61,829 bases of DNA, from NCBI GenBank assembly GCA_903859705.1, contig CAIONQ010000126.1, positions 1 to 61,829 on the forward strand. The letters run 5' to 3'. The notes below the pieces were generated by a model. It did no database searches. It saw only the letters and a list, made by a program, of their open reading frames with translations, and was not told where the DNA came from. Shown here one piece after another: positions 1 through 61,829 of the stretch. Origin of the DNA: an uncultured Chthonomonas sp. GTDB taxonomy: Bacteria > Armatimonadota > Chthonomonadetes > Chthonomonadales > Chthonomonadaceae. A program made the position numbers and the translations under genes. How positions within the stretch are numbered: the stretch's first letter is position 1; each line of letters begins with the position of its first letter.

Positions 1-80
1 TCATGCTGCTTAACAAGCAAAGCATAGATAGCATCAGGATTTGAAGCGCAATATCTGTCGAATTCATCGCGAGTGAGCAT
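1..80 (-). CDS. IS66-like transposase, N-terminal fragment (runs off window)
   Basis: Reading leftward from the ATG at 80, 26 codons stay open to the window edge (MLTRDEFDRYCAS..., then DAIYALLVKQH). From memory, this resembles the extreme N-terminus of IS66-family transposases, which often begin LTREEF...GPEAVYALL and continue into a coiled coil. Only this short piece is visible, so the catalytic region cannot be checked. No minus-strand tnpA/tnpB-like gene lies upstream between 81 and 494, which would fit a single-gene IS66 relative or a decayed copy. The match is by eye; a chance resemblance over 26 residues is possible. Confidence 0.5.
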   Translation of the reverse strand, partial: MLTRDEFDRYCASNPDAIYALLVKQH

Positions 81-423
81 ACAAGAAGATACGGATGCCA
101 GAATCAAAAGATTCCCGGACTTAACCCGTCTGAGTAGTTACGCTCAAGAAATAAAAGGCAGAGCACCTTCTGGCCACTTTCCTACGTACCGTGTACTTAG
201 CCATATTATGCATTACCGCCTCCGATTTGCCTGTAAGGCATGTCTTTGCCTGCGATACTCGCAACTGCAGTGGGATCGCATCGCGATCTCAGACGACAAT
301 CGGAACGTATGCGTTACGGAACGACTTCAAAAAGGCATCCCCTTTGCATTGCTGGCTGCGAAGCGTTGTTCCTGCCTACCTCAGCGAAGCTTCCTAACGT
401 CTCCCTCCCGCCCGATGCACATA
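81..423. other. non-coding stretch beside the transposase
   Basis: I see no convincing gene here. The open frames starting at 73, 191 and 240 have low-complexity, cysteine- and arginine-rich translations unlike proteins; the one starting at 240 is only an upstream extension of the gene at 495. Between the transposase start and the promoter at 424 one would expect the end of the insertion sequence. The string GTAACTACTCAGAC (minus strand, about 129-142) is a possible terminal-repeat candidate, but without the other end this cannot be confirmed. Confidence 0.4.
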
Positions 424-27140: not shown

Positions 27141-28713
27141 GTCCCCTGCTCGCCGATTGCCTTGCATCATTGGGTTGGTAAGCATTCTCAGCCTTTTTGC
27201 GGCAACTGCCACCCGGGCGGATTTTAAGATCCCCACACGGGGAGGCATGGGCATTCGCTATGTGGTTACCCCACAAATGGATGCTTCGGAGCGGCACCTT
27301 GATGTAGACATGAGTTTCTACATCATGGGGAAGGCGGACAGCCTTACCGTGCAACTACCTGTATGGTCGCCGGGCGATTACCACGTACAGAACCATGCGC
27401 AGTTTGTTCAAAATCTGCAGGCCACAGCCTCCCCAGGAGATGCGCTTCAAGAGCAGCCCGCTACTGTAACCCACACGGATGCAAATAGCTGGACCATTGC
27501 ACTGAAGCCAGATTCACAGAGCATACACATTCGATATTCGATACCTTCTACACCCCCCGGCATCTTCAGTGAGAATGTGAAGCTGTTGACGCACTTTGGG
27601 TTTGTTAACGGGCCGGCGGCATACCTGTATGTAGCTGATCACAAAGATGTACCGATTTTCCTGGATGTAAAAGTGCCGGGAGGCTGGAGCGTAACGGCCC
27701 CACTTCCGCTTAAAGAAGCTAATGGAGTAATATTGCCAGCTACGTTTGTTGCAAAAGACTACGATACACTGGCAGACTCTCCGCTGGTATTCGGCGATAA
27801 GCTTGGATTAAAGACGCAGATATTTCAACAGGATGGCATCGATTACAAAGTGGTGCTCTTTCGTAACCCGGATAAATTTACTGCAGTGCCGGAACTGCTT
27901 AAGGTTGTCAAAGCCTTAGTCAAGAGCGAAGGCACAATAATGGGCCCACCGGCAACGGGCCCGTATAGCTTTATATTTGATGTGGATGGACCGGGCGGTG
28001 GTCTGGAGCATCTCAACTCATTTCGCATAGGTTACCCATCCTTTGTGCCGCCAGTGCGGCTAGCAAGCATGATTGCGCATGAGTACTTCCATCATTGGAA
28101 TGTTAAGCGGATTCGGCCCGAAGTGCTTGGCCCATTCGATTATGTCAACCCTCCTAAATCACACAATCTCTGGTTTGCAGAGGGAGTAACCGAGTATTAC
28201 GCCGAGATTGCAACGCATAGAGCTGGACTGAGTAGTGCTCAAGATTTGCTGAGACATTTCGGGCAGACAATCGCCTATTACAACACAGTGCCTGCGCGCA
28301 AAACAGTTTCGGCAGAGGAATCGAGCTATCGCGTATGGGAGGCGGGAAACAGCTCGGGGTTCGGGGGTATGAACTATTATCTTAAAGGTGAGATAATAGG
28401 GCTATTGCTTGATCTGAAGATTAGGGCACTTACTGCAGGTGGACGCTCATTGGATGATGTGATGCGCCTGCTGTACAAACGGCACAACTTTCCACAGGCA
28501 GGATACACGGAGGATGAACTGCGTACTGTGGTGAACGAAGTAGCGGGCCAGGACATATCCGACTTCTACAATCGGCTTGTTCGCAAAACAGACGAACTAC
28601 CAACAGAGGAAGCGATATCCCCATTTGGGCTTGGCGAAGATATGACGCCTGTAGCCGGAGAAACTCCGGCAATGCGCAGACTGCGCGAGGCGTGGTTGGA
28701 GGGAACGAATTGA
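27130..28713 (+). CDS. M61-family metallopeptidase (glycyl aminopeptidase-like)
   Basis: A 527-residue secreted peptidase. The N-terminal signal (IIGLVSILSLFAATATRA) is followed by the beta-rich domain typical of M61, GGGLEHLNS, and the zinc motif H317-E-Y-F-H321 (MIAHEYFHHWNVKRIRP) with the third ligand E351 in WFAEGVTEYYAE. M61 enzymes usually end in a PDZ domain; here only about 60 residues follow the catalytic domain and no PDZ is visible, so this is a short form. It should remove N-terminal glycine or alanine from exported peptides. RBS is AGGAGGG before the ATG. Confidence 0.88.
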   Translation: MFDRSPARRLPCIIGLVSILSLFAATATRADFKIPTRGGMGIRYVVTPQMDASERHLDVDMSFYIMGKADSLTVQLPVWSPGDYHVQNHAQFVQNLQATASPGDALQEQPATVTHTDANSWTIALKPDSQSIHIRYSIPSTPPGIFSENVKLLTHFGFVNGPAAYLYVADHKDVPIFLDVKVPGGWSVTAPLPLKEANGVILPATFVAKDYDTLADSPLVFGDKLGLKTQIFQQDGIDYKVVLFRNPDKFTAVPELLKVVKALVKSEGTIMGPPATGPYSFIFDVDGPGGGLEHLNSFRIGYPSFVPPVRLASMIAHEYFHHWNVKRIRPEVLGPFDYVNPPKSHNLWFAEGVTEYYAEIATHRAGLSSAQDLLRHFGQTIAYYNTVPARKTVSAEESSYRVWEAGNSSGFGGMNYYLKGEIIGLLLDLKIRALTAGGRSLDDVMRLLYKRHNFPQAGYTEDELRTVVNEVAGQDISDFYNRLVRKTDELPTEEAISPFGLGEDMTPVAGETPAMRRLREAWLEGTN

Positions 28714-29942
28714 CCGGCAGCAGCGCTGCGGCAGTGAACGGAGGGACTCCTGTTCGCGACACCGCACAAAACCCCTGGCCAAAATGGCCGATTTATGATG
28801 AGACGGAGGAGCGGGCGCTTCTCGAGGTACTGCACAGCGGCGCCTGGTGGTCCGTAGAAGGCACTCAGGGGAAGCAGTTTGAACACGAGTTTGCTACGTT
28901 TCAGGATGCAAAGTTTGGCGTAAACTGCACCAATGGAACCGCTGCACTCGAGATTTGCCTGCGAGCCCTGGGCATTGGTTGCGGCGATGAAGTGATAGTG
29001 CCGCCATACACCTTTGTTGCGACCGCAAGCGCAGTGCTTGCCGTGAGCGCAACCCCCATTTTTGTCGATATTGAGTCCGATACTCTCAACATCGATCCAA
29101 ATCTCATTGAAGCAGCCATCACTCCGCGCACCAAAGCGATTATTCTGGTGCATATGGCTGGTCGCCCGGCAGATATGGATGCCATCCCTGCGATTGCACG
29201 CAAGCATGGCCTATACCTGATTGAAGATGCGGCACAGGCCGTTGGGGCTGCATGGCGCGGCACCCGTGTGGGAGCCATAGGCGATCTTGGAACGTTCAGT
29301 TTTCAGGCAAGCAAGAACCTCAACTCTGGCGAGGGCGGCATCATTCTAAGCAATGATGAGGGCCTTGCAGACAAGGCATGGTCTGTTGCTAATGTAGGGC
29401 GTGTGCGCAGTGGCCGCTGGTACGAACATCAGGTTCTGGGTGGCAACTACCGACTTACCGAGTTTCAGAGCGCCATACTGCGCGCTCAGATGACGCGAGT
29501 ACCGGATCAAACGGAGCGGCGGGCAGACAATGCCGAATACCTTAGATCCCTGCTTGAAGGCGTGGATAGTATTCAGCTAATGCGGAAGGATGACCGCATA
29601 ACCACGCATGCCAACCATCTGTTTACCTTTCGATACAAAAAGGAAGCATTTGGCGGAATTGGCTATGCAAACTTTGTGAAGGCACTTGCTGCAGAGGGCG
29701 TACCCGCAACAACAGGCTATGTGCCGTTATACAAAGAGCATCTGTTTGCGCGCTTTACCCTTAAAGAGGGCTCCTGGTGCCAGAACAGCCGCACGCCTAA
29801 CTACCCGGCACTGGTGCTTCCTGAGTGCGAAGCCATTTGCCAGGATCTGGTGTGGATACATCAAACGGCTCTACTGGCTACCCACAAAGACATGGACGAT
29901 ATTGCGACGGCAATCGCGAAATTGGGTTCAGTCCTTAAGTAA
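28710..29942 (+). CDS. DegT/DnrJ/EryC1 PLP aminotransferase
   Basis: A 410-residue sugar-aminotransferase-type protein. NCTNGTAALEICLRALGI, VIVPPYTFVATASA, VHMAGRPADMD, LIEDAAQAVGA, and the PLP lysine in FSFQASKNLNSGEGG (K202). The TTG at 28710 is the best start: GGAGGG lies 6-7 bases upstream and it overlaps the M61 stop as TTGA. A GTG at 28692 is possible. Such enzymes make amino sugars for cell-surface glycans or antibiotics; some are regulators or oxidoreductase partners. No other sugar biosynthesis genes lie beside it, so its substrate is open. Confidence 0.9.
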   Translation: MTGSSAAAVNGGTPVRDTAQNPWPKWPIYDETEERALLEVLHSGAWWSVEGTQGKQFEHEFATFQDAKFGVNCTNGTAALEICLRALGIGCGDEVIVPPYTFVATASAVLAVSATPIFVDIESDTLNIDPNLIEAAITPRTKAIILVHMAGRPADMDAIPAIARKHGLYLIEDAAQAVGAAWRGTRVGAIGDLGTFSFQASKNLNSGEGGIILSNDEGLADKAWSVANVGRVRSGRWYEHQVLGGNYRLTEFQSAILRAQMTRVPDQTERRADNAEYLRSLLEGVDSIQLMRKDDRITTHANHLFTFRYKKEAFGGIGYANFVKALAAEGVPATTGYVPLYKEHLFARFTLKEGSWCQNSRTPNYPALVLPECEAICQDLVWIHQTALLATHKDMDDIATAIAKLGSVLK

Positions 29943-58719: not shown

Positions 58720-59283
58720 ATGCTGCCCATTTCCCGCCCCTGTTTCATTGCCACATCTGCTTCCTTACGGCTTGCGCTGGCTTCTTGCATCTGCGTTCTC
58801 AGTACTGGTGTTGCGGTGGCACAGCCTGTGCCTGTTGTTCCGGGCCATTTCGAGCAATTTAAAGCGCTGGAGGGGGAGTGGTTAGGAGCAACAAAAGAAA
58901 CAACTGGCCTGCGGGTTGTGTACCATGTAACCTCCGGCGCATCTGCCGTGATTGAGACGATAGCTCCGGGCTCGCAGCACGAGATGATAACGGTGATCAC
59001 CAAAGATCGTGAATCTGTATCGCTCACTCACTACTGCGCCATAGGCAACCAGCCACATATGATGGCGCCAGATTCAGATGGCGGGAAAGTGGTGGCGTTT
59101 AAGTTTCAGAGTGCAGGTAATCTGAAGTCTGAAAATGATATGCACATGCGCGAAGTCACCTATACATTTGTTGACAAAGACAATTTGAAGACCATATGGA
59201 CTACCTACAACGGCGGCAAACCAGCAGGTAACCAGGTATTTGTTCTTAAGCGCAAGAAGGTGGCCACACACACTGCGCATTAA
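58720..59283 (+). CDS. secreted protein, lipocalin/DUF1579-like
   Basis: A 187-residue protein with a signal peptide (LRLALASCICVLSTGVAVAQ). The mature part opens FEQFKALEGEWLGATKET; the G-x-W with an early strand resembles beta-barrel lipocalin-like or DUF1579 proteins. Strands alternate through VIETIAPGSQHEMITVI and YTFVDKDNLKTIWTTYNGG. ATG 58720 has AAGGAG 6 bases upstream. Function unknown. Confidence 0.65.
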   Translation: MLPISRPCFIATSASLRLALASCICVLSTGVAVAQPVPVVPGHFEQFKALEGEWLGATKETTGLRVVYHVTSGASAVIETIAPGSQHEMITVITKDRESVSLTHYCAIGNQPHMMAPDSDGGKVVAFKFQSAGNLKSENDMHMREVTYTFVDKDNLKTIWTTYNGGKPAGNQVFVLKRKKVATHTAH

Positions 59284-59317
59284 GGGCACCGGCAGAGCTG
59301 TTGGTTCGGAGATCAGC

Positions 59318-59665
59318 ATGATCCATGTGGTGCTAACGACTCGCGAGTGGATGCGGCGCAAACTGTTTGAGTCGCTGGAATTTACCGGCAACGAAATCAC
59401 GTTTGTTTCGTCTCTTGAAACAGAACAGTTATCGCGCTGGAATGAACAACAGATCGTTCTGATAGCCGATATGACCTATCCCAATGCTCGAGAAGTGCTT
59501 ACAGGATTATACAATAGCAACTTCATAGTGTTGGCGATTATTTCTATAGGTGACGGGCAAGAGAAGGAGATCGAACTCGTTAGATCTCTGCATCGCGCTG
59601 CATTTGTTACTCAGCACTTTCATCCGCTGGAAGTAAGAGCCATGATAAAGCGTTTGCTTACGTGA
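59318..59665 (+). CDS. degenerate receiver (CheY-like) protein
   Basis: A 115-residue protein with the size and pattern of a response-regulator receiver: IVLIADMTYPNAREVL has an Asp at the phosphorylation strand, and FVTQHFHPLEVRAMIKRLL resembles the TKPF...EEL end, but the conserved lysine is replaced by a Q-H pair. No output domain follows. ATG 59318 is chosen because CGGAG precedes it; the frame from 59240 runs inside the previous gene. It could be a phosphorylation-independent signalling protein. Confidence 0.55.
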   Translation: MIHVVLTTREWMRRKLFESLEFTGNEITFVSSLETEQLSRWNEQQIVLIADMTYPNAREVLTGLYNSNFIVLAIISIGDGQEKEIELVRSLHRAAFVTQHFHPLEVRAMIKRLLT

Positions 59666-59701: not shown

Positions 59702-59748
59702 AATCAAAGTGGGTACCGGGCTATATTGGCACGGTACCCGCTTTGATT
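59702..59748. terminator. long stem-loop terminator, both strands
   Basis: AATCAAAGTGGGTACCG (59702-59718) pairs with CGGTACCCGCTTTGATT (59732-59748) with a single G-U, giving a 17-bp stem around a 13-base loop. On the minus strand it is followed by AATTTG. It separates the convergent receiver-like gene and the DUF2961 fragment. Confidence 0.85.
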
Positions 59749-59756
59749 TATCCATA

Positions 59757-60176
59757 CTAAATAACTTCCAGTGCGTTGCGGTCTCCCAGCGGTGCAAAGC
59801 GGCTGTGCGGCTCTGTTTGATACCAGTAAGCCACGGAAGCAATGTCGTCTTGCAGCGGCAGGTATCTGCCTTCACTGCGCCAACCAATAGCCTGCATGGT
59901 AACGCGCAAATCTGATTCGAACCGGATAGGATCCATGATGTGGAATCGATACAGGCCGTGGCGCGCCCCCACCCTGTTAGAAGCATCACCGTAGGGATAG
60001 CCCAGATAAGGCGCGCTAAAGGTCTCACCAAAGCACCAGGCACCGCCAAAGTAGTCTTCCGTGCCGGTGCCACAAAGCGTTGGGAACTCTCCATCCCCAT
60101 CCATAAAGAACTTAATTTCGCCCTCGCCCCACCAGCCGCTGTTGATAAGGTGGACGAATACCACAAAAGTATCCAT
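59757..60176 (-). pseudogene. DUF2961 gene, C-terminal remnant
   Basis: About 140 codons encode the end of a DUF2961 protein (SGWWGEGEIKFFMDGDG, CGTGTEDYFGGAWCFGE, LYRFHIMDPIRFES, LQDDIASVAYWYQTEPHS). Intact members are about 330-400 residues, so over half is missing. Reading upstream from the remnant, the recognisable sequence ends around VVFVHLIN (about 60165), and a stop (TAG at 60191-60189) belonging to the regulator gene follows in the same frame. The break coincides with the change in DNA character and the dyad at 60147-60183. The ATG at 60176 is probably fortuitous. Related proteins are secreted and implicated in glycan breakdown (DfA-type anhydrosugar enzymes). Confidence 0.82.
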
Positions 60177-60183
60177 CCACCTT
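60147..60183. other. imperfect dyad at the element junction, candidate attachment site
   Basis: AAGGTGGACGAATAC (60147-60161), centre CACAAAA, then GTATCCATCCACCTT (60169-60183). The arms match at 13 of 15 positions. Two inverted arms around a 7-base centre are the layout of tyrosine-recombinase core sites (binding arms plus overlap region). It sits exactly where the DUF2961 gene is cut and the phage-like block begins. The recombinase gene and the other end are not in the window. Confidence 0.5.
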
Positions 60184-60188
60184 CTTGA

Positions 60189-60593
60189 CTAAACATTCAA
60201 TTTACGCAGCGTTTTTTGGTTATCTTCGTGGAACCCTGTTATCATCATGTCCACTGCCTTCTTCTGGTGATCCAGGAGGCATCGATACTGATGTTGCAGA
60301 AGTACATCCATGCCGCTACCCTGAAATTCTGACGGAGGCTTTAATCCTGCTTGAAGATACGCTTCTGTAGGATCGAGGTCTAAAATAGCTATTGCCAGGT
60401 CTACTGTCGTTTTTGAGATGTTAGCTCTTGGTATCATTTCCATGTTTCTCCAAGTGCTCTCTCTTCCTTGTTTAAGAAGTCCGAGTTCAACTCCACGCGA
60501 TCCACAGTCTGCGCATGTCATACCGAGTTCCTCTCTCTGCGCTCTAAGGTATTGTCCAAAGGTATTGTTTTTAACAACCGTCTGTCTCGCCAT
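60189..60593 (-). CDS. XRE-like HTH protein, repressor candidate
   Basis: A 134-residue protein. HTH-like segment at ~10-80: FGQYLRAQREELGMT, then LLKQGRESTWRNMEMIPR and ISKTTVDLAIAILDLDPTEAYLQAGL, echoing the chromosomal XRE regulator's tail-like AGY motif. Two cysteines (CADC) sit in the recognition region. ATG 60593 is chosen; a longer frame to 60755 reads through the promoter region. Faces away from the gene at 60817; by position it would control the divergent region like a phage immunity repressor. Confidence 0.65.
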   Translation of the reverse strand: MARQTVVKNNTFGQYLRAQREELGMTCADCGSRGVELGLLKQGRESTWRNMEMIPRANISKTTVDLAIAILDLDPTEAYLQAGLKPPSEFQGSGMDVLLQHQYRCLLDHQKKAVDMMITGFHEDNQKTLRKLNV

Positions 60594-60637
60594 CTTGATT
60601 ACGCTCCATAGTGAATACTGATACATCAACGAATGGA

Positions 60638-60666
60638 ATTGTACCACAGTTTGTACGGTTTCGCAA
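60638..60666 (-). promoter_or_regulatory. promoter for the repressor-like gene
   Basis: On the minus strand TTGCGA (60666-60661) and TACAAT (60643-60638) are exactly 17 bases apart. It lies 45 bases before the ATG at 60593. The spacer contains GTACCACAGTTTGTAC-like dyad sequence that could be an operator. Confidence 0.6.
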
Positions 60667-60748
60667 CTATTATTCGACTCCTTTGCTATCTTTACGCTCA
60701 AACCATAGTTCTGTATCATATTTTGTCGCATTATTTTGTGCGTTTGTA

Positions 60749-60778
60749 TTGACAAATGAAAGGAGGTGGTGCCATACT
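60749..60778 (+). promoter_or_regulatory. promoter for the rightward genes
   Basis: Perfect TTGACA (60749-60754) and CATACT (60773-60778) with an 18-base spacer, 39 bases before the ATG at 60817. The AGGAGG at 60761-60766 lies inside the spacer and has no usable start codon after it, so it is not a ribosome binding site in use. Confidence 0.55.
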
Positions 60779-60816
60779 TTTAGTGAGTAAACGACCGTGC
60801 TAAAGAATGGAACACA

Positions 60817-61071
60817 ATGAAGAGCATCACTGATTGCGAAAAGCTTATAACCAGATTTGATAATGTACTTATCGACTATGCGGTCGCGTCTGCGGGATGT
60901 GATGTGTACAAGGATGTGGTCGAGACAACGCAAGACAGACTGGTGGCTGAGCAAGCATTAGTATCTGCGCGGCTTGAGGTTATCAATGTAGCCGAAAAGA
61001 TTGCATTCAAGCACGCAAGAAGTGTTTTGAAGAAATACAAGTCGAAGAGAAAGGATGTAGCAAGAACATGA
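60817..61071 (+). CDS. small helical protein of the element
   Basis: An 84-residue, charged and mostly helical protein (KLITRFDNVLIDYAVASAG...) with a Lys/Arg-rich end (ARSVLKKYKSKRKD). No family recognised. It overlaps the next gene by 4 bases (ATGA at 61068). Weak ribosome site (AATGGAA). Product probably acts on or with the following protein. Confidence 0.55.
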   Translation: MKSITDCEKLITRFDNVLIDYAVASAGCDVYKDVVETTQDRLVAEQALVSARLEVINVAEKIAFKHARSVLKKYKSKRKDVART

Positions 61072-61829
61072 CATTAGCGTTACTCGATCCGGAATATAAA
61101 TTTACTCCGGATCGAGACGCGGTACCATTTAATCCGCGTATCCCAATGACAATCGAGCAAGCCCAGGAATCAATTGATCGGCTAAAGGAAGCTGGCCAAG
61201 AAATCGATAGGCACACGGACCAGATTGTGCAAGAAGCATGGAAGCTTAAGCAAGAAGTGGATGGTGTTCCTAACTGGAAGTTGGTAGCCGAGATCCTTGG
61301 AATGAGCAGCTGGGAAGAAATATGCGTGCGTTTCTTCCATTCCTATCGGCAAGACATTGAGCGACGGTTGAAGCGTTACGATGTTGTGAAGGACCTTCGC
61401 CCTAAGCAAACAGGTGGACAGCTCAAAGGATCACACATTGATGCTCTGATACCTGTACCGAAAGCATTGAGGGCTGAAGTGCTAACAAAAGCGTGGGAAA
61501 TCGCCCCCCCCAACAAGTTCAGTAAGACTGGTGGCAAATTGGTTAGCGCAAAAACTATTACTGAAGCTGCAAGGCAAGTAAGAGTAGAGGAAGCGAGACT
61601 CCAAAGTATTGCAGAAGCTACGGAAGAAGAACCGTCTGCTATGGATACATTCTTTGGAGAGCCTGCAGCGCCTCCAGTAAAGCTGGAAGCACCTGTAATG
61701 AAGCCACATAACCCTGACAAGATCGAAAGTAAGCAAAGAGTTGCATCTTCACCTACTACGTCGATACAGGATGATGTTGAAGATGACCCGGGAACTGAAC
61801 TTCCAGATGAAGAATGCGACTTATTCTCA
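61068..61829 (+). CDS. element protein, DNA-binding-like, open at window end
   Basis: 254 codons remain open to the edge. The first ~60 residues are polar and helical (AQESIDRLKEAGQEIDRHTD); the middle (GGQLKGSHIDALIPVPKALR...LTKAW...VSAKTITEAARQV) has the flavour of a ParB or phage HTH 'SH...LLPVP' module. A long acidic and Pro/Lys-rich tail follows (ETATEEEPSAMDTF-like, DDVEDDPGTELPDEE). A ParB-like or replication-initiator-related role is possible but speculative. C-terminus unknown. Confidence 0.5.
   Translation, partial: MTLALLDPEYKFTPDRDAVPFNPRIPMTIEQAQESIDRLKEAGQEIDRHTDQIVQEAWKLKQEVDGVPNWKLVAEILGMSSWEEICVRFFHSYRQDIERRLKRYDVVKDLRPKQTGGQLKGSHIDALIPVPKALRAEVLTKAWEIAPPNKFSKTGGKLVSAKTITEAARQVRVEEARLQSIAEATEEEPSAMDTFFGEPAAPPVKLEAPVMKPHNPDKIESKQRVASSPTTSIQDDVEDDPGTELPDEECDLFS

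Follow-up and report, generated by a model that had tools for sequence, protein, structure and literature searches.

A likely insertion of foreign DNA in a DUF2961 gene of one uncultured Chthonomonas strain, seen from one end

The window (i.e., the whole stretch of DNA analysed) comprises 61,829 bases and corresponds to the entire contig C126, so that position 61829 is also the end of the contig. The genome bin of the host (G000) consists of 179 contigs, 6.24 Mb in total. The following features are present towards the right end of the window.

59757 to 60144, minus strand: interrupted DUF2961 gene, of which the 3' (C-terminal) part is present, covering positions 131-235 of the 235-position profile
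60144/60145: junction between the last base common to the intact allele and the first foreign base, placed by the break in identity against contig C137
60145 to 61829: foreign block, set apart from the host by GC and tetranucleotide composition
60147 to 60183: dyad of two 15-base arms around a 7-base spacer, predicted to form a 16-bp hairpin with two G-U pairs on minus-strand RNA
60189 to 60593, minus strand: small regulator-like gene of 134 aa with a weak helix-turn-helix resemblance, transcribed towards the junction
60749 to 60778, plus strand: promoter-like site TTGACA-18-CATACT for the divergent operon, overlapping 60760-60781, where the dyad arm is partially repeated
60817 to 61071, plus strand: ORF of 84 aa without relatives, overlapping the next start codon
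61068 to 61829, plus strand: ORF without relatives, at least 254 aa long and still open at the contig end

As the sequence-only reading of this locus had stated, homology to DUF2961 stops at the junction, leaving a truncated gene. Contig C137 of the same bin terminates in a DUF2961 gene with profile positions 1-215, which are complementary to the window's 131-235. The last 253 bases of C137 are identical to window positions 59892-60144 at 250 positions, the three single-base differences being located at 60021, 60045 and 60078. Beyond 60144 the identity falls to chance, with 47 of the next 200 bases matching. Given an ordinary DUF2961 reading frame runs on past the break point in C137 (HYVGTYMAWQQNNSGWWGEGEIKFF...), this contig is, judging from its sequence, the uninterrupted allele. 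The three differences suggest the interrupted allele belongs to a strain other than that of C137. A second junction with the DUF2961 5' part was not found in the bin, where the 5' part is present only within the intact allele.

The sequence-only reading had proposed a comparison with a relative in which the DUF2961 gene is intact, and this comparison was performed. In the same-genus genome G001, contig C348 has a GH4-like gene together with the 5' part of DUF2961, as on C137, and reads through the break point uninterrupted; on contig C556 the 3' part of DUF2961 is followed by an alanine racemase, the order seen in the window. Further relatives align across the break point too, and none of the matches listed for the 61 genomes searched presents the same break as the window. 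Given G001 shares the gene order and reads through the break, the window allele is the derived one, produced via insertion or rearrangement with foreign DNA. The orthologous gene of G001 is itself split in the assembly: C348 and C556 end about 32 bases apart, within the conserved EIKF...CGTGTEDYF motif. The assembly probably breaks there because many DUF2961 genes have that motif.

GC content averages 0.538 in the host but is 0.448 in the block at 60145-61829. The block's tetranucleotide correlation with the host is 0.17, whereas host stretches as long as the block reach 0.79 +/- 0.07, with a minimum of 0.56. Since this composition is far outside every host stretch, the block is foreign DNA. 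It had been described as phage-like; however, its ORFs have no match in PHROGs or Pfam, its DNA has no match in phages or plasmids and no exact stretches in viral contigs, and composition alone marks it as foreign. The 254-aa ORF has no relative in viral contigs, genome contigs, phages, plasmids or 291 genomes of the phylum. Likewise, no relative was found for the regulator protein in viral contigs, genome contigs, phages or the 291 genomes, nor for the 84-aa ORF in viral contigs. The term phage-like would thus reflect only the gene layout, i.e., a small regulator with a divergent operon.

The stop codon of the regulator-like gene is located at 60189-60191 on the minus strand, where the sequence-only reading had placed it. 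The 134-aa protein has no family match and a weak PDB match (3fym, E=0.37). Two structure predictions made without an alignment are poor (pLDDT of 56 and 40). Promoter-like sites such as that at 60749-60778 are no commoner than in shuffled sequence. The 1.7 kb of block seen includes no recognisable gene of a recombinase, phage or plasmid, and no contig in the bin provides a continuation past 61829. The block also contains a second strong dyad at 61083-61116 (CTCGATCCGGAATATAAATTTACTCCGGATCGAG), a few bases into the 61068 ORF; were translation in fact to begin at the later ATG at 61146, this dyad could be a site bound by a regulator.

The dyad next to the junction was confirmed as described from the letters: its arms AAGGTGGACGAATAC (60147-60161) and GTATCCATCCACCTT (60169-60183) are complementary at 13 of 15 positions and flank the spacer CACAAAA (60162-60168). 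Dyads this strong with a loop of 6-8 nt are expected 0.18 times per shuffled window, and those of the same quality with loops of 3-12 are expected 0.69 times. The dyad thus exceeds the chance expectation, but the real window contains 8 distinct dyads of this class, several of which resemble gene-end hairpins between genes. The claim that the dyad sits exactly at the edge of the block needs correction. Because identity with the intact allele extends no further than 60144, the dyad begins 2 bases into the block, lies wholly within it, and does not straddle the edge.

This position bears directly on the proposal that the dyad is an attL or attR, i.e., the core of a tyrosine-recombinase element with CACAAAA as its overlap. 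Both the 15-7-15 geometry of arms and spacer and the location within a few bases of the edge speak for it. In tyrosine-recombinase integration, the host arm and the overlap are retained in one junction, and the overlap is common to host and element. Hence, if the dyad were the core, junction and empty site would have to agree across the left arm and on to the end of CACAAAA. Against the C137 empty site, however, the left arm region matches at 5 of 17 positions and the overlap at 1 of 7; identity ends 18 bases before the overlap begins, and matches past 60144 are at chance. CACAAAA was therefore rejected as the crossover, and any site-specific core, if present, would lie at or left of 60144.

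Further searches covered the bin, in which the element is incomplete. A second CACAAAA-centred dyad, as the sequence-only reading had suggested looking for, was absent from the bin at up to 3 mismatches, save for a chance-like site on C157. The only tyrosine recombinases in the bin are an XerD-like protein (C167), an XerC-like protein (C76) and a broken fragment (C133), and no plausible integrase gene is found in the visible 1.7 kb of the block or plausibly linked to the dyad in the bin. Searches for serine recombinases, terminases and Mu transposases yielded a Tn3-type resolvase on another contig as their sole match. Since Rfam and tRNA searches at the block edge returned nothing, no tRNA-type attachment site is indicated there. 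An att core at the dyad is very improbable: the alignments already refute the proposal provided that C137 represents the ancestral empty site, and G001 agrees with C137. The case illustrates the need to check the empty site before naming a dyad close to a junction an att core.

Other mobile or repeated DNA was observed in the same genome. The broken recombinase fragment, a 145 aa open frame at the right end of G000:C133 (L052 1462-2090), lies beside tandem repeat copies containing GTATGTACCAGGGTGCGCCGGGTG, and fragment and repeats are probably the remains of another mobile element. Near 28505-28903 of G000:C47 (L053), a resolvase adjoins a large ORF resembling a Tn3-family transposase. Near-identical 22-mers (AAGAAGTTGGGTTTGTACCTTT) are found on six G000 contigs (C48, C58, C99, C100, C102 and C163); these are a dispersed repeat family, unrelated to the dyad at 60147-60183.

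A role for the dyad in the regulator's own transcript fits its pairing better. On this minus-strand transcript, the dyad corresponds to a 16-bp stem starting a few nt past the stop codon, with a folding energy of -25.9 kcal/mol for the 70-nt stretch with the hairpin. Both arm mismatches become G-U pairs on the minus-strand RNA only, being A-C mismatches on the other strand, and this strand bias favours a transcript-end hairpin. The stem has no T-run directly after it, hence the hairpin is not a textbook terminator; the missing T-run may be due to the element ending there, or to a different role of the dyad. From the pairing pattern, the dyad most likely forms a hairpin at the 3' end of the regulator's transcript, which it would terminate or insulate ahead of the host DNA; a protein-binding site near the element's end would be less likely. 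Elsewhere in the window, the 59240-59665 ORF and the DUF2961 3' end converge on a near-perfect dyad at 59705-59745, which looks like a two-way terminator.

The half-site AGGTGG-N4-ATAC has exactly three copies in the window, all in the block: two in the dyad and one over the promoter-like site at 60749-60778. The dyad arm recurs in this operator region (60760-60781) with 17 of 22 positions matching. In a fairer test this recurrence presented a p of about 0.02, and 3 of 36 control stretches recurred as well; it was dropped as firm evidence and kept as a lead.

Taken together, the locus probably presents one end of foreign and presumably mobile DNA inserted in the DUF2961 gene of one strain, C137 being the intact gene of a second strain. 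The observations behind this reading are the intact and the interrupted allele, the exact break at 60144/60145, the synteny of G001, the foreign composition and the location of the dyad wholly on the foreign side; it is drawn from one junction and 1.7 kb of foreign side. In this respect the sequence-only reading, which had an element integrated inside a DUF2961 gene, is well supported by the intact allele, by relatives intact across the point and by the composition of the block. A foreign, probably mobile element would have landed in the gene in one strain of the sampled population and would end at about 60145. Its outermost gene would be the small regulator, reading towards the edge, with the divergent operon reading inwards, and its recombinase or transposase would lie in the missing part beyond 61829. 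The dyad would act as the 3' hairpin of the regulator's transcript, ahead of host DNA.

The main competitor, though a distinctly less likely one, is an assembly chimera, in which the contig end would fuse the real DUF2961 3' part to a short stretch of unrelated sequence from a phage, a plasmid or another organism. The block is indeed short, terminal and seen once, occupying the final 1.7 kb of the contig; it differs from the host in composition, the bin also holds the uninterrupted allele, and the same gene breaks the G001 assembly within the conserved DUF2961 motif. A chimera formed through that shared motif would, however, lead into another DUF2961 gene rather than into unrelated DNA, and the three differences from C137 fit a separate strain haplotype. 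At the contig's other end, window positions 1-141 are exactly 141 identical bases common to C28:55619-55759, which is the terminal stretch of contig C28, and to C179:26487-26627. The shared bases suggest a branching repeat at this end, and these exact 141-base overlaps suggest a de Bruijn short-read assembly with k = 141. Given de Bruijn contigs consist of k-mers seen in reads, we infer the junction probably existed in the reads, which argues against a chimera.

A lower probability still is assigned to the left end of a Mu-like transposable phage or similar transposing element, with near-random insertion in a coding gene and with transposase-binding sites both near the end and in the operator region. 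Mu has the same order of edge, regulator (minus), divergent promoter and early ORFs (plus). The host sequence at the break shows nothing like an att core, the block start is readable as TG at 60143-60144, and the dyad arm recurs in the operator region. Yet the visible ORFs match neither a Mu transposase nor Ner or a repressor, the recurrence of the arm is weak by the test given above, and with the element cut at the contig end neither its second end nor a target duplication can be seen. PF09299 has no match in the bin either, although the control of that search gave none. A more speculative and doubtful variant takes the block, which has no protein relatives in any collection searched, as the end of a new mobile-element family, perhaps a transposing phage, in which the inverted AGGTGG-N4-ATAC pair and the third copy over the early promoter would couple regulation with end recognition. 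The preferred reading remains an insertion by a foreign element, apparently an ordinary strain-variable one that is visible from one end. Because the genome has about ten other DUF2961 genes, its effect on the cell is probably small. With both alleles present in the assembly, the end of the element can be placed to the base.

In comparison with known systems, the window copy is a truncated member of the DUF2961 (PF11175) proteins: its 3' part matches well above the cut-off, whereas the 5' part is replaced by foreign DNA. The locus resembles the lambda-type attL and attR of temperate phages and integrative elements in its sharp junction of host and foreign DNA within a gene, and in having inverted arms around a 7-bp spacer near that junction. 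It differs in that host identity stops before the left arm, and hence the spacer is not a shared overlap, and in that neither an integrase nor a partner site is seen. Relative to intrinsic terminators, the dyad lacks the T-run; it shares with terminator-like hairpins a strong stem that follows a stop codon by a few nt in the coding-strand transcript, and the window has comparable intergenic stems at other places (e.g., 59705-59745). The left end of phage Mu has a regulator next to the end, a divergent promoter and early genes. Although no transposase or Mu-family protein is recognised here, and neither the other end nor a target duplication can be seen, the locus is like it in having a regulator beside the end that reads outwards, a divergent early operon, and an insertion in an ordinary coding gene.
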